The notes under the pieces are model-generated. The model ran no database searches and was not told the DNA's origin. It saw only the letters and a list, made by a program, of their open reading frames with translations. A program made the position numbers and the translations under genes. Below are positions 7,501 through 36,658 of a stretch of DNA of 61,217 nt, piece after piece (the first letter of the stretch is position 1; each line of letters opens with the position of its first letter). This stretch comes from a virus: the IMG/VR virus record IMGVR_UViG_3300027741_000065, positions 1 to 61,217 of that record; one strand, given 5' to 3'.

Positions 7501-10500
7501 ATCTTGTCACCAGTTGATTACATGCTTAAAGAATTAAAAGCATCAACTAGTCTTTATATTAATAGCCAAATGGGTGGGAAGCAAGCTATTAAGTTGGCCT
7601 TGCAACGTGGAATGGAAACGCAAGTACAAACTCTACTGCAACAATATGCAGATAGTTTGACTGACCTTCAGAAAATTTTTGATTCCAATCCGCGCATAGC
7701 TGATTTGTCTCTTGCTTTAAAAGATAAATACATCAAAGATGAGTTTGTTAGAGAGGCAATAAAAAAATATACAGACGACGGATTAAAACTGCGATCCACA
7801 TTTGAAGAAAAATTTAAAAATTTTACGCAAGTTTTTTCAAATTTGTATCAGTTGTTTGCTGGTAATGAAGACTCAACAGACCAGACTAACCGCATAGTTA
7901 AAAAAGAAACTGAAGTACCGCCAGAGCTTGGCAACATCATCCGCCGTGGTATGCGTGATCACCGCCAAGGCCGTAACGTAGATGTTGAAGACTTTGTAAA
8001 AACCTTTGGGCTTTTCCCAGGTGGCGTTGACTTTGGTAACTGGGTCAATCAATCTGAGCGTGCGGCTCACTTAAACGCTATCTATGATGCCATGTACGAC
8101 ATGGCTGATTTGTCTGGCATTTCTCCAAAGATGCTTGGATTAGACCAAAAGTTAAAAATAGCTATTGGAGCGCAAGGTAGAGGCGGTAAAACTGCAGCTC
8201 ATTACATACCAAAGCTCAATGAAATCAACCTTACTAAAACTAAGGGAGATGGAACTTTGGGCCATGAGTGGCATCACGGCTTAGACCATAACTTGCGATT
8301 GACAACCAACGGCAAAATATTGATGGCCGATACAGTTGTTATGCTTAAAGGCATGATGGACGTTGATAGGGTTGAAAACAATCTTCGTAGTATTTTGCGA
8401 GATGCTGCTAATACTGCAGACAACCGTAACCTTCCGCCAAAGAAAGCAATGTTTGCTGCCGTTACACAGGGCAGATACGACCAGCAACCTTCTATTTATC
8501 AAAATTCAAACGAGCCAACTAAATTTTACAAAGATGCTCGCAATTTAGATGATGGCGCATCACCTCCTTATTGGAGTTCAGATACGGAGATGTTATCTCG
8601 TGGATTTGAGTCCATGTTGTTTGATGCATCTAAAGGTGGAAGCCCGTACCTTGTTGGCCCAGATAGGGCTGATGGTTACATATCTCCAAAAAATGGATAT
8701 GCAGGAACCTCTTATCCAACTGGTAAAGAGCGCCCAAATATTAATGAAGTGTTTAAGCAGATGCTTGAACAGATTGACCCAGAAACACTGGAAGTCAAGA
8801 CTTACAAAATGGAAACAAAAATTGTTTACATTGAAGATCTTGGCTATGCTGTTTTGGATCAATACAACCTTAGCACAGGCGGCGATGGAACATTAATTTG
8901 GTACAAAGACGAAAAACAAGCAGAACATATTAAATCATCTCGCAATGGAAATGATAGAGCTTTAACTCCATACAGGATACAGATTGGTAAAGTTAATAGT
9001 CGCATCCTGGATATCTCTAAGCGTGTTGACGCAATCATGGAAGAGATGGGTCTGTTTAAGTGGCCTGAGATTAAGAACGGATCAATGGCTGAGTCCATGT
9101 TCTATCACATGCGCCAAGGCTGGTGGCCCAAGAACAACCGAGAGCTGGCTGAATACGGCATTAAAGCTTACCTTCAAAAGCCCGAGCTGCTTGGATTTAA
9201 TCCGGCTAAAGATCAAAGCGAGATTGACAAATACAAAATTTCAGACTTTGAAGGTGACCGGGTAAAACTTAAGCAAACTCAGGAAGATTTTGAGGCTGCA
9301 GCTGCTAGGTATATAGGCCAAATTATCACCGACATGCGAGCTTCTGGTTCTGACACCAAAGCCATCTACGATTACATTGTTAACCTGTATCAAAACCAGC
9401 CAACGCTGGATGTTCAGTCTGTCCTAAGCAAGACTAACAACGCCTACTCCACACCTCTACCTATTGCATTCCTGGCTGGTATGTTGGCTCGTATCAAGTC
9501 AACAACTACCGTATTTGATCCCACTGGCGGCAATGGAATGTTGGTGGTTGCAGCCAACCCACAAAATGTAACAACGATAGAGTTGGATCCTCATCGCGCT
9601 AATAACATGGAGCTGATGCAAATTGGCAATGTTATTCAAGGAGACACTACTGAGGAAGTAAAAAAACTTAGAGACCAAGAGGTTGATGTTGTTTTAGCCA
9701 ATCCACCATTTGGCGCTCTTTCTACTCCGGTAAAAGTACCATCTTGGACGGGGCAGGATTACAGAATTGGTACTTTAGATCAGTTGATTGCAGCTGAATC
9801 TTTACGCACTATGGCTAACAATGGTCATGCCATATTGATACTTGGAGCGCATCCAAAGCCAGGTACTGTAACTTCAACAGACCGAGTGTTCTTGAATTGG
9901 CTCTACGGTAACTATAACGTAGCAGATCATTTTGAAATTGCTGGTAATTTATATCGTAAACAAGGTGCGTCTTGGCCGTTGCGCTTCTTGGTTATTGCCG
10001 GTAGAAACCAAACGGAAAATGCTTATCCAATTGACTTTACTGTTGATCGGATAACTTCATTTGATGAACTTTGGAGTAGATATGTTCAAGCCAGTGATCG
10101 TAGCGAAAAAGTCGTGGTGGGTACCGGAAAAAAACAGCAGCCTGCTGGCGGTGCAAATCAACAGCCCGGAGGAGTACCAACAGGCAATACGTCAGAAGAT
10201 GGAGAGCTTGGCGGAGGAGTTGGGGCTGGAGAGGGCGCTGGCAACGGCGAACCACTATCTCCAACAGGAGGGGGCACGGGCACTTCCGGAGCCGGGGGAC
10301 GAGGAACAGCTGGTGGAAATGGTACTGGAGAACAACAGCCGCCTAATGGAAAAGGTAAACGAGGGGGATCCAGCGATAGCGAAACCGGCGGAACCGGAGG
10401 ACGCACAGGTAGCAGTGAAAAATCAGGAGATGAACTGGGAGGACTTTCTGACCTAGACCTAGATGACATCTTTGACAATCTAGGTAAGCCAGAAAAGCCA

Positions 10501-13500
10501 AAGGGTGGTCCTCGCGCCCCTGCAGCTCCTCGCACTCCACGGGGTGAATCTACTGGAGGTCCAAAAACTCCAAGAGGCCCATCAGTCAAAGCCCCAACAG
10601 CCATTCCTACAGAGTTGGAAGGGCTAGGTCTGGAAGACTTATTGGGAGAGTTGGATGAGGCTTTAAATGGAAAACCTCCAGAAGCACCCAAGCCTCCAAA
10701 ATTTGAAGCTCCAACAGGACTTGGCGCTAAACCAAAAAGAGAAAACAAAAAGCCAGTACAGGAAACTAAAAAACCAGTACAGCTGTTGCTTACATATTCC
10801 GCTCTATCTGGAATGGATAACTACTATAGAGCGCAATATTTTAAATACCTTGAAAACAAACAAGTTAATGCGGCACTGTCTCGTATAGCCCAGAACGCCA
10901 AGAACACTAGCGATGACCCTAACAGCGGCCTGTATTCCCGCAAAGGTGATCAAGATTACGCCAATGTGCAGCCCATCATTCAACGTGTATGGGAAGCTAT
11001 TGGGCAAAAGATTAGTGATGTAACGCAGCGTATCAAGCAGGTTTACGCATTGCTGGTTACTAAATTTGGTGAGCCAATCAAAGCGCATCTACGTACGTTT
11101 GTTGAAACATTGCGAAACAAAGATAAACGGCGTCCAAAGAATCAAACCCCAGTTCAGTCTGAACCCATTGATACCGAATCTCGGGTTGTGTACCTTGGCA
11201 AGTCTAGGTTTGCAAGCGATGGCATTTACCTACCCCGAGCACAGTCACAATATGCTTACTCTGCTCTGGAAAACCTGGAAGCACAGGTGGGTGATATTGA
11301 TGAGTTTGTAGCCAATGAGCTGGGCTATCCATCTGTTGAAAAGATGGCTAAAGGATTGGCTGGATACCAGATTGACGGTCTAGCTCTAGCTATTCAAGCC
11401 AACAAACTTGGTAAAGGCTTCATCATTGGTGACGACACCGGTGTGGGTAAAGGACGCGCTGCAGCCGCAATGTTGGTATGGGCTAAAAAGAATGGAAAGA
11501 TCCCAATCTTTGTTACCCTGAGCGACTCTTTGTACACAGCAATGTATGAAGATTTGAGCAATATTGGGCATGAAGATATGCAGATTGGAATGACCAATAA
11601 TGATTCTATTATTCAGAAAAACATTGGTAACGGCAAAACCAAAATTGTATTCCAGAATAAAGGAAAGAATGGTCCAGACCTTATGTCCTACATCACCAAG
11701 CATGGTGAGCTGCCTAAGGGCATGGATGTATTGTTTACTTCCTACTCTCAACTGAATGGTGGAGCTGGTTCCCCGGCTCGACAAAATGCAATTGCTTCTT
11801 TGGTAGCTGCAGGTAAAGCTGTGTTGGTTATGGATGAAGCCCATAATGCAGCAGGCATACCAACTAACCCAGAATCAATGGGCCAGAACGCATTTTTTAT
11901 GTCTTTGCTTACAGGTAAAAACTTGTTGGGCAAAGACAAAGATGCGCCAGAAGATTGGCAGCCACCATCAGCTTTGTACCTGTCGGCTACTTTTGCTAAG
12001 CGGCCTGACAACATGCCGTTGTATATACATACAAACCTACGCTATGCAGCCAACACTCCAGAAGAGTTGACTGAATTGTTTGGCAAAGGTGTAAAAACTG
12101 ACGTACTACAACAAGTTTCATCTGAAATGCTTGTTGAGTCTGGTTCCATGTTGCGCCGCGAGAGATCGTATGAGGGCGTAACTATGGACTTTGTTACAGA
12201 TGAAGCCAATGCTCCACGCGATACAAGGGAGGTTGATAGGGTTACAACTATTCTTCGCTCTTTAGTTAATGCTGACCGCGCCCTCAAAGAGTGGTTGAAG
12301 ACGGGAGATGCTCAAAAAGATATTATTGAAAAGCTTGGACCTAAGGGTTCTATGTTGGGCAAACAAGGGCCTAACGCATTTACCCAAGCAAGAAGTAACA
12401 TGTTTACTTCCGTGGTTCACAACTACATTGGCACTCTGTTGCTGTCTACCAAAACTCAAACTGCAGTAGACATGGTAGTCGACAAAATGAATAACGGCGA
12501 GAAGGTTGTTATTGGTTTGCAGAGCACCAATGGCAGCGCCCTGGATGATTTTGTTCAAAAGAACAACATCAAGATTGGAGACGAGATTTCCAACTTTGGG
12601 TGGCAAACTTTAATTCAACGTGCAATTGATTCAACCAGAAAAATTACATTGAAGGCTGCCAATGGAGATAAAAAAGATGATGTAAAAGTGGAGATTCCTT
12701 ACTCCATGATGCCGCCCTCTATAAGGGCTGGCTATGACAACTTGGCATTAATGATCAAAGACTTTCAGTCTGATTTACCTGTTGCTCCTATTGATTTCAT
12801 ACGCACAGAGCTTGAAAGTAAGTATGTCTGGACAATTGATGGTAAGACTAATGTTGGCAATACTCCACCGGCTGGAGTTAAGTCTCGGCGTTTAGTTGTT
12901 AAAGAAGTGACTGGTCGTAACACTGCTATTGACTACCGTGGGGACAAGCCAAAATACATGGCACTTGACAACCCCGAGCGTGTTCAAATGATTTCCCAGT
13001 TTCAAAATGGGGAAGACTCAGAAAAAGGGCCAATTGACGTACTAATAATTAATTCTGCTGGTGCTACCGGTATTTCCTTACATGCATCTGTTGAGGCGTT
13101 TGATCAGCGTCCTCGCCACATGATTGTGCTGCAGCCACATGGAGATATTAGCGTCTTCATTCAGTTGCTTGGACGTATTCATAGGACGGGTCAAGTTGAG
13201 TGGCCGTCATTTACCATGCTTGCTACCGGCATCCCAGCTGAGCGGCGTATTCTGGCAATGCTTCGTAAGAAGCTATCCAGCTTAAAGTCCAATACTTCAG
13301 GCGGATCCAGTAGTACAAAGGTTAATGGCGTTGACTTCATCAACATGTATGGGGACGTAGCAACTGCCGAGTACCTTAATGAACATGCCGACATCCGTGA
13401 GTTTTTAGGCCAGCCATTATTTCAAGATCCCGATAAGGAAGCGGGAACAGACTTGGCTCACAAAGCTTCTGGCACGGCGGGATTGTTGTCCTCTGCAGAT

Positions 13501-16500
13501 CAGCAAGAGTTTTTTGACTCTATTGAGGCTAGTTACACAGCGGCGATTGAACTTCGTAACGCCACCGGGACTAATGCTCTAGAGCGTAGGGTTCTTCCTT
13601 TGAATGCAGAGATGATCAAGGAAAACCTTATTGAAGAGGGATTGGACAACTCTAACCCATTTTTGTCTGATGTGGTTATGGCTCAGTTCAACGTAGATGT
13701 GATTGGGTCCATACCTACTGAGCAAAACATTAAAGATGATATTGCTCAAGCTTTGAACGGACGTACTCCCCAGCAAGTAGTAGATGAGATTGATGCTGAA
13801 CTCAACACTATTTTTATTGAAGTGCGCAACCAAATTATTTTGAAGCAACAGGATTTGGATAGAGCTATTGCGGCACCAGAAGCTACAGAAAAAGACAAAG
13901 AACAATTTACAAATCAAAAAAATGGATTGATCGGGGATTTTGTAAAACTTGGCGCTCGTCGGGAGCAAACGCTTAATGCTTTAAGGTACGAATACGCAAT
14001 TGGCATGGGCTATCAAGATTTTGAAATTAACAACGTGCCTGCAAGCGCAGTTGTTATTGGCATTAAAGTTGACAAGTCTCGTATTGGAAAATCAAAAACA
14101 GGTAACCCTTACTCTCCATCCAACTTCCAAGTTATCTTTAAGCGCAACATTCCAGATGGTAGGGTTGCTCCTTCATTAGCTACGCTAGAAGGAAAAAGCA
14201 TTAAAAAAAGTAGTGGTTACCGCAATCCCCCTTTAAATGAATTTTTTGCCTTACGTTCTGTAACGGGTGGCCGCACTACCCGCTACATTGCCCTGGGGAA
14301 CATCCTGCGGGCTGCACAACTTTTTGATAAAGATGGTGGAGAAATTGCTAGGTTTACTATTGCGAACCAAGATGAGCCGGTGTCTGGTGTGGTCATGCCT
14401 GCCAAATACGAGCCCGTGGCTATCAGTTCACAGCCAGTGCGGTTGCGTAATCCTAATGCGGCATCGCAGTTCGTCTTAGCAGCATGGCACCAATTCCTGC
14501 AGAAGAAGTATCAAGATACCCAGTTTGATTCTTACAAAGATGTAGCAGACCAAGTAAAGCCATTGCTACTAGAAGGCTTGCCAGACTTTGGCCCATTGGA
14601 GGAGACCAAGCGTAGGAACTATAGCGGCACTATTTTGCGCGGCTCACAAAACATGTGGACGCTTACGCTAGATACGTACCGTCCAAGCAATGGTTTCCGT
14701 TTAGTTATTGATGAATCAGCCCCCAAGAAGTTTATTTCCTCTCCAGACATTAAAGATCTGGTTGGGGCTATGGCTAAAAAACGCAACGGACCTTATGAAA
14801 TGTCCGACAGGAGCTACATCCGCGATCCGGAAAAAGTTGCTGCGTTGGTTAAGTTCTTACACAAAAACTATCCCGCTACTGTAGAAGCTGATTTTGGAAC
14901 ATTGGCTCGTGAACTAATGAAGGTGGAGTTTGACAACAGCGAGGCCAATAAGGGCATGTTGTCTCGTGGAGTTGCTGAGGGTGGTCAAAGCGTTGAAGAC
15001 GTTCAATCCCAAATTATTCCAATCAACGGTATCACTGTTAAAGTTGTTCAGTCTGCTGACAACCTTCCGGATACAGCTGCTCCTTCCGATGTTGAGGGTG
15101 CTTGGTACTCCGGAAACACCGTTTACCTTGTGGCTGATAACTTGCCTAATGCGAAACGTGTACAGGAAGTACTAGCGCATGAAGCAATTGGCCATGCCGC
15201 ATTGGAAGCAATGCTTGGCAAGGAAATGATGGGTGAGTTAGTAAAGAACGTACAAAACCTAGAGAAAACTTCAAATCTTATTAAGAAGATTTCTGAGCAA
15301 GTAGACCGCACACAACCCGGCTTGTCTCCAGAAAACCGGGCCAAAGAGATCGTAGCCGTAATGGCAGAGCGCGGGATTCAGAATGGACTGATAAAGCGTG
15401 TTTTTCAGGCAATACGTAACTTCCTTAAAAAACTTGGCTTCACAATTGAGTTTTCTGACAGTGATATCTTAGCTCTGCTGAGGAATGCAGAGAAATTTGT
15501 GGCTGGAGAGTTTAGCCCAACAGGGGAATCACTCTATTCTAGGAAAAACATTTATGGAAAACCAGCACCATTGGCTGTATTCCAAGCTCCAGATGAATTG
15601 AAGCTAACGGATACGTTTATCCAAAAGTATGTTGACAAGCAAATTGATACCAAGCGTATTGTTGAGGCCATCACAAAAGAAACTGGTCGTATCCAAGACG
15701 CTTGGAATCCATACCTTAAAGAAGAGTTGTTCCACGGAAGAACTGCTAAACAGACCATAGACTTTCTGAAGAATGATTTGCGTCCCTTGTTGGAAGACAT
15801 GGACAAGCGCGGAATAAATCTGGATGATTTCAATGAGTACCTCCACAATCGCCATGCCAAAATTCGTAATGAAGTTATAGCTATACGTGATCCTGGAAAA
15901 CCTGATGGCGGATCTGGAATATTTAACCAAGAAGCAGATGACTACATGGCAGATCTGGATAAAAATCCAGAACTTAAAAAGAATTTTGAAGCTCTTGCAG
16001 CCAAAATTGATAGCATCATTGAGGAAACTCAAAACCTGTTAGTGTCATCCGGCTTGGAAAAGCAAAGCACTATTGATGGTTGGCGTGAATTGTTTCCATT
16101 CTACGTTCCTCTTAACCGAGAGGAGGATGAGCTTGATTTCATTAACTCAAGCAGCGGCATGGGCCAAGGATTCAATGTTAGCGGCCCCTTCTCAAAAGCA
16201 GCCATAGGCTCGTTCAAGACTGTTAAGGACATTGTTGGAAGCATTGCCCTACAACGTGAGCGTGCAATTGTTAGATCAGAGAAAGCTATCGTTGGACGGG
16301 CAGTATATGCCCTGGCTATCCAAAACCCCAATCCAAACTTTTGGATGCCTATCAACCCAGAGGCCATCAAGAACAAGCAGAAGCTTATTGATGAAATGGT
16401 AAAGATGGGCATGTCTTTGGCTGATGCTGAAAACATTTTTCAAGAGCCAAAAACTGGTAGCCTGGATAAGAAAACTAACGTAGTTAAGTATGCAGTCAAT

Positions 16501-18282
16501 CCAAATATGCGCAACTCACCTAACGTGCTTCATACACGTATCAATGGTGAAGACCGCTACGTGTTCTTTAACCCGGGAAACCCCAACGCTAAGCGTATGG
16601 TGGAATCTTTAAAGAACCTTGATACCCATCAAGTAGATGAAGTATTGAGTGGCATTGCCGAGATAACCCGTTTCATTGCAGCTGCAAGCACTCAATACAA
16701 CCCAATTTTTGGTGCATTCAACTTTGTGCGTGACGTTCAGAGTGCTGCACTCAACCTGTCCAGCACTCCTATTGCTGATAGTAAAGTTCAGGTTGTTAGT
16801 GACTCTGCAAAGGCTGTAAGGGCAATATACCGTCATTTGCGCGGAAAAGGTGCTACTACTCCAGAGATGCAGAACTGGATAGATTTGTTTGAACAGTTTC
16901 AAAAAGCTGGTGGTCAAACAGGTTTTCGAGAGCAGTTTAGCCGAGGCAAAGGCAAGGAAACCATTGTTGCTCGTGAGCTTGAACGCTTAAACCGTGGGAA
17001 CGTCAAGAAAACTGCCTATGCCGTATTTGATTGGCTGTCTGACTATAACGATGCTATGGAGAACGCAGTTCGTCTTTCTGCGTTTAAAGCTGCCTTAGAT
17101 AAGAATATCTCTGTAGATCAAGCTGCAAGCATAGCCAAGAACATTACTGTTAACTTTAACCGTAGGGGTGCAAGCACTCAAACGATTGGCGCCTTGTATG
17201 CTTTCTTTAATGCTAGTGTTCAGGGTACAGCACGGTTAGCTCAAACGCTTTTTGCCAAAGACAAAAATGGCAAGATGATTTTAAGTTCTATTGGTAAAAA
17301 GATTGTTGCCGGCGGAATGCTAATTGGAGTTATGCAAGCCGCCATCTTGGCTATGGCTGGTTTTGGTGCAGATGATCCTCCCGAGTGGGTAAAGTCTAAA
17401 AACCTTGTTATTCCAATTCCAGGTAGTGAAAGCAAGTACTTAACTGTACCAATGCCATTGGGTTTCAACATCTTCCCCAATGTTGGCCGCATTGCTTCTG
17501 AGTACATGTTGGTCCAATCTGGTGCGATGGGTGGCAAGCGTGATATTAAGAAAACCATTACTTACCTTGGATCTTCAATATTTGATTCCGTTAACCCGCT
17601 TGGATCCAGCACGTTTGCTCAAACATTGGCACCTACTATTGTTGATCCATTTGTCGGCATTGCTGAAAACAAAGATCCTTTTGGTCGTCCAATTTCAAAA
17701 GAGAACAAAGCTCTTGCGCCAACACCTGGCTACCAGCGCAGCCGGGATTCGGCCAATGGATTGAGCCAGGCAATTGCTTATGGCCTTAACTACATAACTG
17801 GTGGAGGCGATAAAGGAATTGGTTTAGTTAGTCCAACTGCAGACCAGCTGAGCTATATAGCAGGGCAATATACCGGCGGTGTTGGAAAACTTGGTATTCA
17901 AAGTTACGAGTACGCAAAGTCAAAAGTAACGGGGGAGGAGGTACAACCATACCAAGTTCCAGTTGTTGGTAAGCTGTACGGTGATACCAATACACCCGCT
18001 GCTATTGCTGGTCACTTCTACGAAAACATCATTGAGATGTCCAAGCATGAGAACATCATCAAGGAAATGAAGGGAAAGGGCGTAACCGAGTATTACAAGG
18101 AAAACCCTGAGGCTAGGCTATACCATCGAGCCAACTATGTTTCCAACGAAGTTGCTCGACTTAAGAAAGAAAAAAAGGCGCTGATGGAGAAAAATGCACC
18201 AGACGCCCAGATTAAAAGAAAAGATGAACGCATAAAAGAAGTGATGGCAGCGTTCAACAAAGAAGTTACAAAACGCCAATGA
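4516..18282 (+). CDS. Giant polyvalent protein (protease/methyltransferase/helicase), 4588 aa
   Basis: This one gene fills 22% of the genome. Seen in order: an N-terminal cap (GVPEGITQSE); an Ala-rich hydrophobic region (~125-320); an ADP-ribosyltransferase-like segment (LYRGE, R512, then WWTTDKA and FG); Lys/Ala/Glu repeats (~780-835); and a zincin HEWHH (H1250, E1251, H1254). An N6-adenine methyltransferase follows with DPTGGNG (1668-1674) and NPPF (1729-1732), then a Gly-rich linker (~1880-2100). A strawberry-notch-like SF2 helicase has Walker A TGVGKG (2308-2313), DEAH (2440-2443) and LLGRIHRTGQ (2884-2893). A second zincin-like HEAIGH (3555-3560) and an LPD38-like C-terminus with NPIFGAFNFVRD (4062-4073) complete it. 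Such polyvalent proteins, like P1 DarB, are packaged and ejected to counter restriction or early host defence; that role is inferred here. Start: ATG after AAGGGGTTAAC. Confidence 0.9.
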   Translation: MDVLMPDGTTITGVPEGITQSELLARYNKLVPSTESAVEPSEVQPQTGLSAFAPSVMRGGRGLVSLMGDVAPAMIAKAVGANDYAKQQMKEAAAYQKETEALYPSAVPSFTNIKGVGDALTYIVEAVGEAIPTLIPSLFTGGAAAVAGRGAVAAARVAAEKAAATSMASGVTAEAAKEIALKAGVNAAKREALKYEIAGSLVGSAAQNVPDVYQGLYEKGYDNLPAALLFGGFNTVLDAVTPINLLRKSKLSGIPENEIIGAWYKRAGKGALEGMVSEGVTESIQEMSSAAAEKFVDSNNDFFTPQNFERFINAGLKGGLGGAGISAATNVAFGRKEEEVPPSPLAAVPPSNSPIVGTTKVNVGGKESIKVVRQDGSVDIDGVQVTPPTAGIATLPTQPGDQAIVTTAPTQEGQGITTLVPPVQQDITGEESQDQQQLIDEANQILGTPTVTPVTVGQTPDIIDLLPKEPKGTTSGPKTIETQQTTPQEQQAPTAPVTWETIQPGQDITLYRGENKENLKEGEWWTTDKAKAEKFGEVTEVTLPADIVGKHSVQGHGGPDEFVFPTPGSRPTDLAKKPEVTAPPAITGGPSTPKGPVAPVEKPVEVAPTPEPTATEEKPTNIDEVIRSYRDDPDVAAGVIANDLVGQTHLTAEVRQIAKTYLTDGEDAGRTQFKESVQDPDSGFGLLGLTQPEMDAYFDEMDQYLTERSKIFRAEPAQSAALPQLPAGETKPVEGEAAPTGGPTAPTGETKPVEGEAAPTGGPAAPAGPAKPPKVKLTDEEKAKAAEEKKAADEAKAKAAEEKKAADEAKAKAAEEKAAADKAAEEQKKKLEEFNKQPMKVAMDEGNADTVASLLYGKSVPPELHPIILSEGLIRIPVNMDEVEKIESALVKYGFTITGRDVPATTDDPAYQGPERLTISALYKPEKTSIEGGGAEFGGNRKGKPKNVQPITKDATDGQINKMLAAVSKEELLDVTSNPNSSFGAMMFKEGIVSYILSPVDYMLKELKASTSLYINSQMGGKQAIKLALQRGMETQVQTLLQQYADSLTDLQKIFDSNPRIADLSLALKDKYIKDEFVREAIKKYTDDGLKLRSTFEEKFKNFTQVFSNLYQLFAGNEDSTDQTNRIVKKETEVPPELGNIIRRGMRDHRQGRNVDVEDFVKTFGLFPGGVDFGNWVNQSERAAHLNAIYDAMYDMADLSGISPKMLGLDQKLKIAIGAQGRGGKTAAHYIPKLNEINLTKTKGDGTLGHEWHHGLDHNLRLTTNGKILMADTVVMLKGMMDVDRVENNLRSILRDAANTADNRNLPPKKAMFAAVTQGRYDQQPSIYQNSNEPTKFYKDARNLDDGASPPYWSSDTEMLSRGFESMLFDASKGGSPYLVGPDRADGYISPKNGYAGTSYPTGKERPNINEVFKQMLEQIDPETLEVKTYKMETKIVYIEDLGYAVLDQYNLSTGGDGTLIWYKDEKQAEHIKSSRNGNDRALTPYRIQIGKVNSRILDISKRVDAIMEEMGLFKWPEIKNGSMAESMFYHMRQGWWPKNNRELAEYGIKAYLQKPELLGFNPAKDQSEIDKYKISDFEGDRVKLKQTQEDFEAAAARYIGQIITDMRASGSDTKAIYDYIVNLYQNQPTLDVQSVLSKTNNAYSTPLPIAFLAGMLARIKSTTTVFDPTGGNGMLVVAANPQNVTTIELDPHRANNMELMQIGNVIQGDTTEEVKKLRDQEVDVVLANPPFGALSTPVKVPSWTGQDYRIGTLDQLIAAESLRTMANNGHAILILGAHPKPGTVTSTDRVFLNWLYGNYNVADHFEIAGNLYRKQGASWPLRFLVIAGRNQTENAYPIDFTVDRITSFDELWSRYVQASDRSEKVVVGTGKKQQPAGGANQQPGGVPTGNTSEDGELGGGVGAGEGAGNGEPLSPTGGGTGTSGAGGRGTAGGNGTGEQQPPNGKGKRGGSSDSETGGTGGRTGSSEKSGDELGGLSDLDLDDIFDNLGKPEKPKGGPRAPAAPRTPRGESTGGPKTPRGPSVKAPTAIPTELEGLGLEDLLGELDEALNGKPPEAPKPPKFEAPTGLGAKPKRENKKPVQETKKPVQLLLTYSALSGMDNYYRAQYFKYLENKQVNAALSRIAQNAKNTSDDPNSGLYSRKGDQDYANVQPIIQRVWEAIGQKISDVTQRIKQVYALLVTKFGEPIKAHLRTFVETLRNKDKRRPKNQTPVQSEPIDTESRVVYLGKSRFASDGIYLPRAQSQYAYSALENLEAQVGDIDEFVANELGYPSVEKMAKGLAGYQIDGLALAIQANKLGKGFIIGDDTGVGKGRAAAAMLVWAKKNGKIPIFVTLSDSLYTAMYEDLSNIGHEDMQIGMTNNDSIIQKNIGNGKTKIVFQNKGKNGPDLMSYITKHGELPKGMDVLFTSYSQLNGGAGSPARQNAIASLVAAGKAVLVMDEAHNAAGIPTNPESMGQNAFFMSLLTGKNLLGKDKDAPEDWQPPSALYLSATFAKRPDNMPLYIHTNLRYAANTPEELTELFGKGVKTDVLQQVSSEMLVESGSMLRRERSYEGVTMDFVTDEANAPRDTREVDRVTTILRSLVNADRALKEWLKTGDAQKDIIEKLGPKGSMLGKQGPNAFTQARSNMFTSVVHNYIGTLLLSTKTQTAVDMVVDKMNNGEKVVIGLQSTNGSALDDFVQKNNIKIGDEISNFGWQTLIQRAIDSTRKITLKAANGDKKDDVKVEIPYSMMPPSIRAGYDNLALMIKDFQSDLPVAPIDFIRTELESKYVWTIDGKTNVGNTPPAGVKSRRLVVKEVTGRNTAIDYRGDKPKYMALDNPERVQMISQFQNGEDSEKGPIDVLIINSAGATGISLHASVEAFDQRPRHMIVLQPHGDISVFIQLLGRIHRTGQVEWPSFTMLATGIPAERRILAMLRKKLSSLKSNTSGGSSSTKVNGVDFINMYGDVATAEYLNEHADIREFLGQPLFQDPDKEAGTDLAHKASGTAGLLSSADQQEFFDSIEASYTAAIELRNATGTNALERRVLPLNAEMIKENLIEEGLDNSNPFLSDVVMAQFNVDVIGSIPTEQNIKDDIAQALNGRTPQQVVDEIDAELNTIFIEVRNQIILKQQDLDRAIAAPEATEKDKEQFTNQKNGLIGDFVKLGARREQTLNALRYEYAIGMGYQDFEINNVPASAVVIGIKVDKSRIGKSKTGNPYSPSNFQVIFKRNIPDGRVAPSLATLEGKSIKKSSGYRNPPLNEFFALRSVTGGRTTRYIALGNILRAAQLFDKDGGEIARFTIANQDEPVSGVVMPAKYEPVAISSQPVRLRNPNAASQFVLAAWHQFLQKKYQDTQFDSYKDVADQVKPLLLEGLPDFGPLEETKRRNYSGTILRGSQNMWTLTLDTYRPSNGFRLVIDESAPKKFISSPDIKDLVGAMAKKRNGPYEMSDRSYIRDPEKVAALVKFLHKNYPATVEADFGTLARELMKVEFDNSEANKGMLSRGVAEGGQSVEDVQSQIIPINGITVKVVQSADNLPDTAAPSDVEGAWYSGNTVYLVADNLPNAKRVQEVLAHEAIGHAALEAMLGKEMMGELVKNVQNLEKTSNLIKKISEQVDRTQPGLSPENRAKEIVAVMAERGIQNGLIKRVFQAIRNFLKKLGFTIEFSDSDILALLRNAEKFVAGEFSPTGESLYSRKNIYGKPAPLAVFQAPDELKLTDTFIQKYVDKQIDTKRIVEAITKETGRIQDAWNPYLKEELFHGRTAKQTIDFLKNDLRPLLEDMDKRGINLDDFNEYLHNRHAKIRNEVIAIRDPGKPDGGSGIFNQEADDYMADLDKNPELKKNFEALAAKIDSIIEETQNLLVSSGLEKQSTIDGWRELFPFYVPLNREEDELDFINSSSGMGQGFNVSGPFSKAAIGSFKTVKDIVGSIALQRERAIVRSEKAIVGRAVYALAIQNPNPNFWMPINPEAIKNKQKLIDEMVKMGMSLADAENIFQEPKTGSLDKKTNVVKYAVNPNMRNSPNVLHTRINGEDRYVFFNPGNPNAKRMVESLKNLDTHQVDEVLSGIAEITRFIAAASTQYNPIFGAFNFVRDVQSAALNLSSTPIADSKVQVVSDSAKAVRAIYRHLRGKGATTPEMQNWIDLFEQFQKAGGQTGFREQFSRGKGKETIVARELERLNRGNVKKTAYAVFDWLSDYNDAMENAVRLSAFKAALDKNISVDQAASIAKNITVNFNRRGASTQTIGALYAFFNASVQGTARLAQTLFAKDKNGKMILSSIGKKIVAGGMLIGVMQAAILAMAGFGADDPPEWVKSKNLVIPIPGSESKYLTVPMPLGFNIFPNVGRIASEYMLVQSGAMGGKRDIKKTITYLGSSIFDSVNPLGSSTFAQTLAPTIVDPFVGIAENKDPFGRPISKENKALAPTPGYQRSRDSANGLSQAIAYGLNYITGGGDKGIGLVSPTADQLSYIAGQYTGGVGKLGIQSYEYAKSKVTGEEVQPYQVPVVGKLYGDTNTPAAIAGHFYENIIEMSKHENIIKEMKGKGVTEYYKENPEARLYHRANYVSNEVARLKKEKKALMEKNAPDAQIKRKDERIKEVMAAFNKEVTKRQ
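6859..6963 (+). repeat. 42-bp tandem repeat, about 2.5 copies, inside the giant gene
   Basis: Copies at 6859-6900 and 6901-6942 are identical and a partial third runs to about 6963. They encode a 14-residue KAKAAEEKKAADEA unit, a charged alpha-helical linker between the N-terminal half and the next globular region. Just upstream, 6700-6830 holds two copies of a GETKPVEGEAAPTGGP-type unit. Confidence 0.85.
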
Positions 18283-22795: not shown

Positions 22796-22828
22796 TGGCG
22801 TGTCTCTCCTTGGTCTTTACTGGCCTTT

Positions 22829-22854
22829 ACCCCTAGGAAACTGGGGGTTTTTTT
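22829..22854 (+). terminator. Intrinsic terminator after the nuclease-like gene
   Basis: Stem ACCCC-(T)-AG, loop GAAA, CT-GGGGGT, followed by seven T on the plus strand. It lies about 34 bases after the stop of the preceding gene. Confidence 0.8.
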
Positions 22855-22874
22855 ACTGTATCAACTGTTACAGT
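22855..22874 (+). repeat. 20-bp exact repeat, copy 1 (inverted relative to 35848-35867)
   Basis: The reverse complement, ACTGTAACAGTTGATACAGT, occurs without mismatch at 35848-35867. The unit contains an 11-bp dyad (ACTGT-T-ACAGT) plus a further ACTGT half site, the form expected of a protein-binding site. It lies directly between the terminator and the structured RNA region. Confidence 0.75.
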
Positions 22875-23034
22875 CAACATGGCTGGGGATTGTGGTTCGC
22901 CGTTACTAGAACCATCCTTGCAAGGCAGTCCTTAGCCATGTTGGTACAACTAATAACACACCCCGCCTTGGGTGCCGAGGACTAGGTTCGCCCCGTCCCT
23001 TGAAGAAATCGGTTATGGCTACCAACTTTTTTTT
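22875..23034 (+). ncRNA. Structured RNA or attenuator-like element
   Basis: P1 is a perfect 10-bp helix (CAACATGGCT 22875-22884 with AGCCATGTTG 22934-22943). It encloses a TGGTTC/GAACCA hairpin (22893-22898 with 22909-22914) and a CCTTGCAAGG palindrome (22916-22925). The 3' arm of P1 shares bases with GTTGGTA (22940-22946), which pairs with TACCAAC (23020-23026) directly before eight T. P1 and this terminator stem are mutually exclusive, as in attenuators. A further stem lies at 22966-22980. No open frame of substance is present. Function and true RNA ends are inference. Confidence 0.5.
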
Positions 23035-23043
23035 GTAAAGTTC

Positions 23044-23071
23044 TTGCGCAACGCAAAAACTCGTGTACACT
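23044..23071 (+). promoter_or_regulatory. Possible promoter for the small RNA
   Basis: TTGCGC (23044-23049), 16-bp spacer, TACACT (23066-23071). The hexamers are modest (3/6 and 4/6). Support comes mainly from placement just upstream of a strong hairpin-terminator. Confidence 0.3.
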
Positions 23072-23074
23072 ACG

Positions 23075-23171
23075 CTCCGTTGTAGTCGTTCACAACAGTT
23101 TGAAAGCCGTTACTCATGCATTGGCCTCCATCTCGGAGGGAACGACCCAGTGCAGTAGTAACGGTTTTTTT
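23075..23171 (+). ncRNA. Putative small RNA with three-tier hairpin and U7 terminator
   Basis: A GTTGT/ACAAC hairpin (23079-23083 with 23092-23096) is followed by a long compound hairpin. Its outer stem is CCGTTACT/AGTAACGG (23107-23114 with 23157-23164), its middle stem TGCATTGG/CCAGTGCA (23117-23124 with 23147-23154, one G-U) and its inner stem CCTCC/GGAGG (23125-23129 with 23135-23139). Seven T follow at 23165. The G-U pair and the T tract fit the plus strand only. No known RNA family is recognised. Confidence 0.55.
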
Positions 23172-23174
23172 CGT

Positions 23175-23520
23175 TTCCGACTCCAACCGTACTCCATACG
23201 TTAGTAAGTGGTTGCCTCGCCAGCGTGGAAGAAAAGACAGAACCTCGGTGTGACCCGCACCTCCGAAGTAGCGTAAGCCAAAAGGAATAAACAAGATTGC
23301 TAGAAATAGCACAAACCCTAGTACGCTGGGAGATGATCGACAAGCCGGTGAAGACTGGCTTTATCGGGATTCCAGGGGAGGGCGGCATGGCCTGCCGTAG
23401 ACTGCATAAAAACCAGTCATCCGCATCTTGATAAAGAGTCGTAAATCGTCCCTAGTCCCAACAGCTGTAACAGCCTGGGGGAGGGAGGGTAAACGGGTAA
23501 GAGGGCTTAGCAGTGGCTAT
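23175..23520 (+). other. Non-coding, hairpin-rich stretch upstream of the early operon
   Basis: No convincing gene on either strand. Local stems include CGTA-CTCCA-TACG, TGCTA-GAAA-TAGCA (near 23300), AAGCCGGT-GAAG-ACTGGCTT (near 23342, one G-U), CGGCA-TGGCC-TGCCG (near 23383) and GCTGT-A-ACAGC (23464-23474). A long-range CCAGCGT/ACGCTGG pair could close the first half. This may be a leader RNA, further small RNAs or a replication origin; the sequence does not decide. Confidence 0.4.
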
Positions 23521-23527
23521 GTAACAG

Positions 23528-23557
23528 TTGACGTTGCTAAAATTCATGTGTTATGAT
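23528..23557 (+). promoter_or_regulatory. Strong early promoter with extended -10
   Basis: -35 TTGACG (23528-23533, 5/6), 18-bp spacer, TGT before -10 TATGAT (23552-23557, 5/6). The sequence TGTAACAGTTGA, shared with the 20-bp repeat at 35848, overlaps the -35, so a regulator could bind here. The first early gene starts 18 bases beyond the -10. Confidence 0.65.
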
Positions 23558-23575
23558 TTAGACCAAGGAAGCAAA

Positions 23576-23761
23576 ATGATTAAGTACATCAAGAAACTTA
23601 TGGCTGGACCAACCGGCCTAGAGACTGCAGCAGCCGAGCTAGAGGAGGCTTACCTAGAGCTTCTATCGGCTCAGACAGCCGTTGACTACTCCCGTAGTGT
23701 TGTGGCGTACAACGAAACCCGCATCGCTCGCTTAGAGGCATACATCAAGGAGGCGAAATGA
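23576..23761 (+). CDS. Early small helical protein
   Basis: 61 aa from ATG 23576 with AAGGAAGC before it. N-terminus basic (MIKYIKKLMAGPTGLE), then a long Ala/Leu/Glu helix. First gene of a tightly coupled early operon; its TGA overlaps the next ATG (ATGA at 23758). No family recognised. Confidence 0.65.
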   Translation: MIKYIKKLMAGPTGLETAAAELEEAYLELLSAQTAVDYSRSVVAYNETRIARLEAYIKEAK

Positions 23762-28283: not shown

Positions 28284-29087
28284 ATGACTGAGAAAATTTT
28301 GCTAGAAAAAATCCGCCTTGATGGTGGAACACAACCCCGAAAAGAATTGGACGTAAACCTTGTCCAGCACTACACGGAGAAGCTTCTGGAAGGAAAGCAA
28401 TTCCCAGAAATAGATTTGTATTTTGATGGAAAGTCTTATTGGCTATCCGATGGCTTTCATCGCTTCCACGCCCACAAACGGGCTGGCTTCAAAGACATTG
28501 CCTCCAACGTAAAACAGGGAACCAAGCGGGATGCTTTTGTTGCATCACTCAAGGCAAACTCTACGCATGGCAAGCCAAGAACCTCGGAAGAAGGGCGCCA
28601 CGTTGTTCAATTAGCCCTGGAAGATATCGAGATGGGAGAGTTCTCGGACGGCCAAATTGCAGTCGTATGTGATGTGAGCAAAATGACTGTAGGCAGGGTG
28701 CGCAAAGCCCTTGGACTGGAAAAGACCCATACCATTGGTAAAGATGGAAAGCGCCGCGATACAACCAACATTGGGCGCAAGGCAAAGCCGGCAGATCCGG
28801 TCTATGAAGAACCGACAGAAGATGATAAATTAAATGAGCTTGCAACAGAGTTTGGTGTGATCTCAGAAGAGAATACACGGCTCAAAGATATGCTGGCAGT
28901 TCGCTCGCTTCCGGCAACAGAAGAGGCCCAAGCCGAAGTGCAGGAAACAATTGAGATGTTGCGAGAGCAAGTTAAGGATCTTGAATCACGGTTGCACTCC
29001 ATGACCCAAAGCAGGGATGAGTTCATGTCTAAGAACGCAGAGATGCTAAAGCAAATCAACTACTGGAAAAAAAGAGCAGAGAAGTAA
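28284..29087 (+). CDS. ParB/Srx-like DNA-binding protein
   Basis: 267 aa. The ParB-type nucleotide-binding core has GGTQPRKELD and LSDGFHRFHAHKRAG (D56-G-F-H59-R60), then a helical DNA-binding part with SDGQIAVVCDVSKMTVGRVRKALG (~119-142). The C-terminal ~90 residues are coiled coil. Ribosome site TGGAGAGAAA. It opens the replication block and could mark the origin, regulate transcription or act as a CTP-dependent clamp; which one is not visible. Confidence 0.8.
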   Translation: MTEKILLEKIRLDGGTQPRKELDVNLVQHYTEKLLEGKQFPEIDLYFDGKSYWLSDGFHRFHAHKRAGFKDIASNVKQGTKRDAFVASLKANSTHGKPRTSEEGRHVVQLALEDIEMGEFSDGQIAVVCDVSKMTVGRVRKALGLEKTHTIGKDGKRRDTTNIGRKAKPADPVYEEPTEDDKLNELATEFGVISEENTRLKDMLAVRSLPATEEAQAEVQETIEMLREQVKDLESRLHSMTQSRDEFMSKNAEMLKQINYWKKRAEK

Positions 29088-31607: not shown

Positions 31608-32033
31608 TCACCATGATGATTGATAGGTGAATGACCACTCGTAACCCAAGTCCAGCTTGAGTAGCTCCTTGAGTTCCTCATGGGTTCGTTTGACATTCTC
31701 CCAATACCATTCGTCGTAATCTGTGCTGCCAAAGAAAAACCCGCTGCTTGATGGGAGTAGCTCTTCTGCCTTGCTGGGGTCTGCGATAACCTCCCCGCAC
31801 ACGTTCATCAGGTCAGCCAAAACCTCCTTGTCAACGTAGTATTCCCCACAGTCGTCTTTGCCATCTTGTACGCGATCAACAAACCAATTGTGGATTTGGT
31901 TGGCCTTGCGCCAGTACATTCCCTCGTATGTTACGCCCTTCAAGCGCATAGACCCAGCCTCCACCCCATCCACATTCACCGGCTCATCGCTGCCAATGTA
32001 TTTCTTGGCGTTCAGGTACATATCTAATCCCAT
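31608..32033 (-). CDS. Conserved phage protein (MGLDMYLNAKKY family)
   Basis: 141 aa from ATG 32033, AAGGAGATAGAC before it; an ATG at 32072 would sit inside the leader. The start MGLDMYLNAKKYIG, YWRKANQIHNWFV and GSTDYDEWYWEN mark a family common in phages and plasmids, of unknown function. It is preceded by leader copy A. Confidence 0.72.
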   Translation of the reverse strand: MGLDMYLNAKKYIGSDEPVNVDGVEAGSMRLKGVTYEGMYWRKANQIHNWFVDRVQDGKDDCGEYYVDKEVLADLMNVCGEVIADPSKAEELLPSSSGFFFGSTDYDEWYWENVKRTHEELKELLKLDLGYEWSFTYQSSW

Positions 32034-32035
32034 GT

Positions 32036-32091
32036 CTATCTCCTTGTTACAGTTAGGGCAATGTCGCCCCACAAACCCAGCACGCTGGGCT
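32036..32091 (-). promoter_or_regulatory. Duplicated 5' leader, copy A
   Basis: The 19-bp CTATCTCCTTGTTACAGTT (plus-strand form, 32036-32054) and the hairpin CCCAGC-AC-GCTGGG (32076-32089) are repeated at nearly the same spacing at 33954-34010. Read on the minus strand: hairpin, ~20-nt spacer, AACTGTAACAAGGAGATAG, start codon. Confidence 0.65.
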
Positions 32092-32108
32092 TGTAGAGTT
32101 CACTTCGT

Positions 32109-33794: not shown

Positions 33795-33951
33795 AGTCCT
33801 GCTCCAAGTAAGTGGTCAACAGGTAGCCGGTCATCACGCCAGCCCAAATCAGCGCGAAACTGGACACGCGCCCATCGGTGAATGCACCGATACAGAAGAA
33901 CACCGCACACAGGGCGCCGATACCAGCGTCCGCAATTGATTGACTACTCAT
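33787..33951 (-). CDS. 54-aa membrane protein
   Basis: ATG 33951 with AAGGAGATAGTA before it, directly downstream of leader copy B. Two hydrophobic segments (AGIGALCAVFFCIGAF and FALIWAGVMTGYLL) joined by TDGRVSS suggest two membrane passes. Overlaps the next gene by 8 bases. Too short to classify; could be a small holin- or exclusion-type protein. Confidence 0.62.
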   Translation of the reverse strand: MSSQSIADAGIGALCAVFFCIGAFTDGRVSSFALIWAGVMTGYLLTTYLEQDYV

Positions 33952-33953
33952 TA

Positions 33954-34010
33954 CTATCTCCTTGTTACAGTTGTGGCCAATATTGACCCGTTAACCCAGC
34001 ACGCTGGGCT
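33954..34010 (-). promoter_or_regulatory. Duplicated 5' leader, copy B
   Basis: Shares the 19-bp box (33954-33972) and the CCCAGC-AC-GCTGGG hairpin (33995-34008) with copy A at 32036-32091; the bases between are partly diverged but equal in length within one base. Confidence 0.65.
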
Positions 34011-34021
34011 AACAGATTGCA

Positions 34022-35343: not shown

Positions 35344-36057
35344 ATGGCCAAACAGACAACACAGAAACTCACAAGGGCGCAGATCAAAGCAGGGCTAGAC
35401 ACTATCCCAGTAGAGCAGCTACTAAGTAGCGGTACAGGCAAGACACCAGCACTAACAACAAAACAAAGAGAGTTCGCAAGGGGCGTGGCTCTAGGTAAGA
35501 CCAAGGCACAGGCATACAGAGACAGCTACAAAGCAGACGCAACACCAGCAACAATGGTCACAGAACCGTATGCGGTGGCAAGGAACCCTTTGGTGTCCCG
35601 CGAGATAGAAGCCTACAAGCTGGCAATTGAGGCGGAGAAACACCGAACCCCTCAACAGCTAAAGGCCTTGCTGGTTCAACAGCTAGTGGCTCACAGTCTT
35701 GATGATGATTTCCCCCCAGCTAGCAGGGTTCAATGCTTGAAGCTACTCGGATCACTCTTTGAGGTGGGCGCATTCGTAGAGCGCAAAGAGATCACCACGG
35801 TCAACAGGTCTGATGACATACGCACTAGGCTCATGGACAGGTTGAGGACTGTAACAGTTGATACAGTACAGGCAGACGATGCGCTGGATTTGCTGGTAGA
35901 GATTCAGGGCTCACGCCAGCCAGCAGACCCCACCGCACCCGTACCCCCGCATTCGGGCCCGTCGGGCCAGCCCCTGCCCCAACATACTATTCCACACATT
36001 CAATCTCTAGAAAAATCCGATGAAGAATCCGATCAGGTCATAGACTTCGATTCCTAG
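35344..36057 (+). CDS. terS: Terminase small subunit (TerS-like)
   Basis: 237 aa. The N-terminal DNA-binding part has LTTKQREFARGVALGKTKAQAYRDSY, a helix-turn-helix common to small terminases, then ARNPLVSREIEAYK. The middle is helical and the last ~55 residues are Pro-rich then acidic (ESDQVIDFDS), probably the TerL contact. It precedes TerL by two small genes. The gene carries copy 2 of the 20-bp repeat in its coding sequence. Confidence 0.75.
   Translation: MAKQTTQKLTRAQIKAGLDTIPVEQLLSSGTGKTPALTTKQREFARGVALGKTKAQAYRDSYKADATPATMVTEPYAVARNPLVSREIEAYKLAIEAEKHRTPQQLKALLVQQLVAHSLDDDFPPASRVQCLKLLGSLFEVGAFVERKEITTVNRSDDIRTRLMDRLRTVTVDTVQADDALDLLVEIQGSRQPADPTAPVPPHSGPSGQPLPQHTIPHIQSLEKSDEESDQVIDFDS
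35848..35867 (+). repeat. 20-bp exact repeat, copy 2, inside terS
   Basis: ACTGTAACAGTTGATACAGT, the exact reverse complement of 22855-22874. Here it encodes TVTVDTV in terS. A degenerate relative (ACCGTATCACTATTACAGA, one gap and three mismatches) lies at 36113-36131 in the intergenic region. Confidence 0.75.
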
Positions 36058-36401: not shown

Positions 36402-36658
36402 AAACAATCATCCATGTAAATCAGCATGTTGTTAAGGCCAATAGGAAGAATGGGACTAATGATCCCGTGCTTACTGTTAAGACCTACAAGGAGAATAAGT
36501 ACGGGCATGAGGTAACCATCCACGGCGATAGTAAGGTTGTTTACTCACCTGATAAGCCTTTGTCTTGCGGGGCGCATGTTTGGATAGAGACTCAGGGCGA
36601 AGTTACAGTTGTAAATGACAATGACTACTTGTTGGCTCTTGGGCCTTGTGGAAAATGA
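36398..36658 (+). CDS. Conserved small phage protein (MKTIIHVNQHVVKANRK)
   Basis: 86 aa. The order IIHVNQHVVKANRK, PVLTVKTYK, YGHEV, VVYSPDKPLSCGAHVWIET is conserved in phages of very different hosts, usually near packaging or replication genes; function unknown. Coupled on both sides (ATGA at 36398 and 36655). Confidence 0.75.
   Translation: MKTIIHVNQHVVKANRKNGTNDPVLTVKTYKENKYGHEVTIHGDSKVVYSPDKPLSCGAHVWIETQGEVTVVNDNDYLLALGPCGK

Follow-up and report, generated by a model that had tools for sequence, protein, structure and literature searches.

The element at positions 22875-23026 of the window (the whole 61,217-base virus record analysed here) is an array of two modules, A (22875-22943) and B (22940-23026), and comparison with other phages reveals conserved RNA folding, modular exchange, a tRNA neighbourhood and an accessory nature. 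Arrays of this kind consist of none to few A modules alternating with B modules, occupy one place per genome and keep to the strand of adjoining tRNAs, and in other phages the stem that closes B can serve as acceptor stem of a tRNA fold. We put at about even the chance that this short array of two structured RNA modules belongs to a large phage-borne family of exchangeable RNA cassettes that act in trans. The window carries a 148-bp direct terminal repeat at its ends, which suggests that it is probably a complete circular assembly, and its genes include those for a terminase large subunit with an intein-like insert, portal, head, Erf, exonuclease, helicase and primase. Within the terminase large-subunit ORF (36646-39042) the intein-splicing domain PF14890 covers residues 255-523, and elsewhere a single ORF of 4588 codons spans 4516-18282. 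The array sits in the stretch from the stop of the upstream ORF to the start assumed for the next gene (22796-23576), which is free of genes, as the first-pass annotation had described for 780 bp. It lies just behind the intrinsic terminator of the upstream gene (22829-22850, plus strand), a hairpin at 22829-22848 followed by T, and the separate terminator reported to precede the element is thus present.

The folded structures at 22875-23034, all read from the plus strand, are confirmed. A 10-bp helix, perfect as had been claimed, pairs 22875-22884 (CAACATGGCT) with 22934-22943 (AGCCATGTTG) and extends to 18 bp through two G-U pairs and GGAUUG/CAGUCC, forming the closing frame of module A (22875-22892 with 22926-22943) around a core that we call X1 (22893-22925). 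This core contains both features described earlier inside the helix, a hairpin (TGGTTC/GAACCA, 22893-22898 with 22909-22914) and the palindrome CCTTGCAAGG at 22916-22925. A second stem of 7 bp, 22940-22946 (GTTGGTA) with 23020-23026 (TACCAAC), closes module B in an acceptor-like manner; immediately after it comes T8 (23027-23034), where, judging from the sequence, transcription of the array probably stops in this phage. The proposed overlap between the 3' strand of the helix and the 5' strand of the stem before the T run is borne out, the two stems sharing GTTG at 22940-22943. The interior of B holds a hairpin (22959-22963 with 22970-22974) and a CCGA/TCGG pairing (22975-22978 with 23009-23012). 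When 22800-23075 was dinucleotide-shuffled 1000 times, 15 of the shuffles contained a Watson-Crick stem of 10 bp; none contained such a stem overlapping a second one of 7 bp with six or more T behind it. Module A alone (22874-22945) folds at -36.1 kcal/mol with z -5.10 and 0 of 200 shuffles as low; module B alone (22942-23026, cut 2 nt short) has z -0.19, no better than shuffles, and the whole 180 nt (22855-23034) has a folding z of -2.61.

The frame of module A is conserved as a base-paired structure. In relatives its helix is AACACGCATGGGGATTG ... CAGTCCCCAGCCGTGTTG, with 6 bp, a 2x2 internal loop and 9 bp, and in the window the positions of the internal loop are themselves base-paired. A covariance model built from 45 modules, the window's included, scores the window's A at 49.7 bits, and a model built without the window, locus L003 and the modules with the same core matches 22876-22943 at 32.5 bits (E 6.9e-6 in 132,869 bases), which places the window in the A-frame RNA family, as defined here, through a model that excludes both the window and its core. 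The same window-free model returned nothing at E <= 1 in L008, L009, L015, L016, L020, L264 and L265. Covariation was counted in 28 modules that lay outside the first training set and came from loci not chosen by the A pattern (alignment A4 omits training modules and opposite-strand hairpin echoes, together with a few rows that were long, gapped or duplicates; the window is part of alignment A2 but not of alignment A8). In these modules 88.2% of cells pair, against 35-47% in slid structures, and 7 of the 17 pairs change on both sides, in 20 cells, which 0 of 500 shuffles reached. The frame has thus undergone compensatory change, for example from C-G to A-U at pair 5 and from G-C to A-U at pair 11, with the window itself carrying a C-G to U-A change at pair 5. 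Pair 15 is U-G in 24 of the 28 modules and U-A or C-G in the remainder, counts that exclude the modules found by regular expression, where this pair is forced, and such a near-fixed U-G is as expected of RNA from this strand.

Within this fixed frame the cores are exchanged. A census by regular expression, covering the window and 261 loci, found at least 184 A modules in 153 loci, 145 of them distinct and never on both strands of one locus, with 125 distinct cores of 20-104 nt that form about 76 clusters by a simple k-mer rule; the expression misses the window's own A, with its two G-U pairs, so that the census is a lower bound for these loci, and frame counts are conditioned in L032-L151, chosen by the exact A pattern, and in L152 to L262, chosen by the exact b1 pattern. 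Core X1 recurs in at least 12 other loci, and its hairpin pairs throughout in all 11 distinct sequences compared, two of its pairs having changed on both sides; its palindrome is nearly invariant in those sequences and hence uninformative for covariation. The window and L003 share X1 identically over 33 nt and have unrelated B interiors, several unrelated B interiors follow X1 modules, and members of the window's B subfamily in L088, L143 and L263 follow three other cores. That subfamily has 3 two-sided changes in 4 sequences, a level that 7 of 500 shuffles reach, and the covariation that had been proposed as a check in relatives is therefore seen in the A frame, the X1 hairpin and the B subfamily. 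The b1 core (GGTTAGCGCCG ... CTGCTTYATGTGA), usual in the B frame, lies inside the A frame at L160:905-1000 and L034:1596-1692. Arrays also contain a third frame (AAAGCGGATGCT ... CAGCGAGTA), which is found as well in the early-gene leaders of L004, L005, L008, L012 and L013; the L008 leader and the L066 array have the same core, and the stem flanking it shows a compensatory change. These comparisons show that cores move between frames and modules between phages. As a single element, the b1 RNA is found at L264:4900-4966 and at L265:1805-1870 (minus strand); in L265 it begins a few bases 3' of a -10-like TATACT and its closing stem leads straight into a run of T, so that it looks like a free-standing small RNA gene.

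Module B links the array to tRNA. It starts within A's 3' strand, at GUUGG, and finishes with CCAAC. Among 143 distinct B candidates, whose 3' ends were placed at the first CCAAC or CAAC within range, in some cases wrongly, the seventh closing pair is present in 75.5% against 62.2% and the eighth in 51.0% against 38.2%, both above all 1000 shuffles, giving B a stem of about the length of a tRNA acceptor stem. The Rfam tRNA model RF00005 scores above gathering (40.1-47.8 bits) exactly over the B slot of L046, L052 and L053, 3 of 6 loci in a relaxed-threshold search of which five or six had been picked for a tRNA-like B; ARAGORN calls no tRNA in these three slots, and neither program recognises the window's B as a tRNA. 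ARAGORN found 25 tRNAs in 2.17 Mb of loci; for 22 of them an A module is no more than 400 nt away and on the same strand, and two further tRNAs lie behind A modules that the regular expression missed. Such a neighbourhood would also suit cis-acting processing or spacing elements of the tRNA island, in which A hairpins and tRNA-like B modules guide RNases and have no trans function. Arrays do adjoin tRNAs, A is a long helix of RNase III type, and theta ribozymes show that phages put RNA elements at tRNA ends for processing (PMC10879173). However, most arrays, the window's included, have no tRNA found alongside, the self-cleaving ribozyme models of Rfam, which cover described ribozymes, gave no match at gathering thresholds in the window and 18 loci or at relaxed thresholds in the stretch and six loci, and diverse, recurrent and internally covarying cores would be superfluous for a cutting site, which together render a purely cis-acting role unlikely.

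The distribution among close relatives is that of an accessory insertion at a fixed site. We found 29 IMG/VR loci that encode a relative of the small protein just upstream of the array, and compared the arrangement of 22 of them (L003-L024, with near duplicates L006/L007, L008/L009, L010/L011, L013/L014 and L016-L018). Seven of these 22 (L008, L009, L015-L018, L020) have no module, and from the upstream stop to the terminator of a downstream RNA, RNA C, they measure 161-175 nt; the 15 with modules measure 232-829 nt and the window 312, and it is this difference in spacing that identifies the insertion. Modules were counted here with a loose pattern, which gives 3 for L010/L011 where reading shows 2 A modules. 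The module-free relatives keep the promoter-like site, RNA C, element D or a substitute for it, the early promoter and the early genes. Selfish or recombination cassettes, whose frames are conserved borders for exchange around RNA of little function, would account for fixed frames with exchanged cores and for empty sites in close relatives. Against them, the compensatory changes, the tolerance of G-U and the near-fixed U-G at pair 15 in the frame fit RNA, not DNA, the cores covary on their own and the arrays keep the tRNA strand, and we regard cassettes of this kind as distinctly improbable.

We prefer RNAs acting in trans to cis elements, as there are many cores, each conserved in its own right and unaffected by which gene lies next to it. 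In the mechanism that we propose, the array would be transcribed as one RNA that ends at T8 in this phage. RNase P prefers U before G1 of an acceptor stem; since U precedes G1 of the acceptor-like stem of B, tRNA-type processing may cut the array RNA at the A/B junction, where, GUUG being common to A and B, one helix would mask or expose the cut site. Once matured, the pieces would work in trans against a host target that varies. Since the modules are accessory and hypervariable and accompany tRNAs, this target would most likely be a host protein that binds RNA or cuts tRNA, for instance one serving in defence, and variability together with tRNA likeness possibly points to a decoy role. The fuller version of this proposal, an RNA equivalent of accessory gene cassettes, is offered tentatively and may well be wrong. 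It supposes a single hypervariable phage locus, often beside tRNA genes, in which recombination shuffles dozens of small RNA cores into a few fixed frames, the acceptor stem of a tRNA fold among them, and the processed RNAs would serve to decoy or inhibit the RNA-binding machinery of the host or its tRNA-cutting defences. If true, it would describe an arms race fought with folded RNA instead of proteins. The family itself, if rightly recognised, would be a large class of phage noncoding RNA that has escaped notice because it occurs almost exclusively in uncultured phages and conserves only its frames, with no sequence kept end to end. Accessory content of phage genomes would then be RNA, in a system searchable with a frame model and core families, and the role of non-tRNA RNAs in phage tRNA islands would become directly testable.

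Viral scans with the A pattern and with the b1 pattern each returned at least 120 stretches, and 19 of 25 whole records have A matches at E <= 0.001, match counts in these records including opposite-strand echoes, and several sense matches, where listed for one record, falling within about 200 nt of each other. Named phages, plasmids and the genomes of 84,980 species were searched by blastn or exact patterns, which divergent modules could escape: the exact A pattern had 0 matches in the species genomes and the exact b1 pattern 2, both in short phage-like contigs of betaproteobacterial MAGs; blastn found no array in named phages, with no match for the L022 and L160 arrays, a single weak match for the window's stretch, inside the upstream gene, and, for the L174 array, only its tRNA genes covered among the 30 matches listed of 856; and the L088 array had no match in plasmids. 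One betaproteobacterial MAG contig has the same upstream gene together with RNA C and the beginning of element D, and the b1 contigs hint at Burkholderiales-type hosts. Rfam gave no match in the window at gathering scores and only chance-level rows in a relaxed search of the stretch, and on 18 loci its sole match at gathering scores was one tRNA; the GOLLD and ROOL models matched neither the window nor the 18 loci.

Several known systems resemble the array in part. GOLLD and ROOL are described as large noncoding RNAs of phages and prophages that are often near tRNA islands and of unknown function (PMC12286853); they share with the array their noncoding phage nature and this frequent setting, whereas each is one RNA of hundreds of nucleotides with an Rfam model and the array modules are of about 50-170 nt, exchangeable and lacking an Rfam match. 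Theta (HDV-like) ribozymes are likewise small RNA elements beside phage tRNAs (PMC10879173), but they self-cleave at the 3' end of real tRNAs, whereas module A is a plain long hairpin before a tRNA-like slot. By these descriptions the element belongs to neither group. The tRNA cluster of phage T4 includes non-tRNA stable RNAs, and phage tRNA arrays such as this one resemble ours as tandem tRNA-type folds with non-tRNA RNAs among them; they differ in that our modules are mostly non-tRNA, have a common frame sequence across many phages and exchange their cores. Exchangeable units between conserved borders also make up integron gene cassettes and CRISPR arrays, but these carry genes or spacers where the array carries structured RNAs. 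The RNA arrays of type III toxin-antitoxin systems are tandem near-identical repeats beside a toxin gene; the modules are not near-identical to one another. We found no description of arrays of this kind in titles and abstracts of the open-access literature (preprints absent, subscription papers few), and, as far as that literature shows, the organisation of interchangeable frames and cores in an RNA array is new.

The first-pass annotation had read the element as a transcription attenuator or riboswitch-like sensor in which the 10-bp P1 and the U8 stem are mutually exclusive and set read-through into the early operon. A structured RNA with overlapping stems survives from this reading; the either/or choice does not. 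Competition is limited to the outer 4 bp of the 18-bp A hairpin, ViennaRNA puts the full A at -53.5 and a shortened A with full B at -52.7 kcal/mol, and an inner pair of module A has a probability of 0.997 in the free ensemble. Because the second fold is only 0.8 kcal/mol away, the A and B stems trade four base pairs rather than exclude each other, and they do not form mutually exclusive terminator and anti-terminator helices. Nor is the element directly upstream of the early operon, as had been stated: a promoter-like site, RNA C with its own terminator (23077-23171), about 350 conserved nucleotides (element D) and a second promoter-like site (23528-23557) intervene between T8 and the early genes, so that the array does not stand between a promoter and genes that it would control, and it is not conserved with them, being absent from 7 of the 22 relatives. 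The GTTG overlap and T8 are real, and the overlap (GUUGG) recurs in 143 of 145 distinct A modules, a count biased by the choice of most loci with a pattern ending GTGTTGG; yet in most arrays read, what comes after B is another module or a gene rather than a T run. A and B modules are also found apart, with unrelated partners and before unrelated genes. There is no sign of coding conservation, which had been named as evidence against the annotation: core lengths modulo 3 are distributed 54/49/42, and any open sense frame occurs in only 43 of 145 segments made of A plus 90 nt. A real folded noncoding RNA is present here, its reading as an attenuator of the early operon is wrong on this evidence, and we give a switch of this type very little credence. 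Similarly improbable is a family of ligand-binding RNAs, with aptamers in leaders of small phage genes. Some arrays do lie just 5' of a start codon and the b1 core loops are nearly invariant, though the locus-selecting pattern fixes most of them, but the downstream genes differ among phages and the same cores precede tRNAs or terminators.

RNA C (23077-23171), a 5' hairpin with a terminator hairpin, is the better attenuator candidate of the stretch. It follows a promoter-like TTGCGC-16-TACACT at 23044-23071, and the inner loop of its terminator hairpin, GAACGAC (23140-23146), pairs with the loop of its first hairpin, GTCGTTC (23085-23091). This loop-loop helix is 100% paired in 12 sequences, with 4 of 7 pairs changing on both sides. 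Many different complementary 7-mers occur in other phages, in a list that required loop complementarity (61 distinct of 127 terminator-like stretches) and includes some by chance, so that the 12-sequence comparison alone serves as a test. RNA C has no Rfam match above gathering. Element D (23172-23520), of about 350 nt, is about 80-88% conserved among close relatives, and no ORF was recognised in it; in L006 (L006:4715-5437) and L024 it is substituted by another sequence and then an HNH-like ORF, which in L006 (5102-5437) matches PF01844. A relaxed Rfam search gave no match in the window's element D or in the D region of L006.

Between the upstream terminator and module A lies a 20-bp palindrome, ACTGTATCAACTGTTACAGT (22855-22874), that is not part of the modules and varies symmetrically among relatives, its sequence differing while its symmetry is kept. 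An exact 22-nt inverted copy is found at 35847-35868, inside a terminase small-subunit-like ORF. The window encodes a ParB-like protein at 28284-29087, which makes a partition or operator role possible for the palindrome. A half-site common to the palindrome and the early promoter (23520-23531) was considered as an operator; the link is weak because relatives whose early promoter was read keep ACAGTTGA or a near form there, whatever the sequence of their palindrome. The palindrome ends in TGTTACAGT (22866-22874), which was dropped as an extended -10 for the array, the start falling inside module A, and no convincing promoter for the array was found in the window. TGTTACAGT is present 11 times in the window against 0.5 expected, and two of its copies fall within a repeated leader (32031-32102 and 33949-34021, minus strand), just 5' of a ribosome-binding site and start codon.
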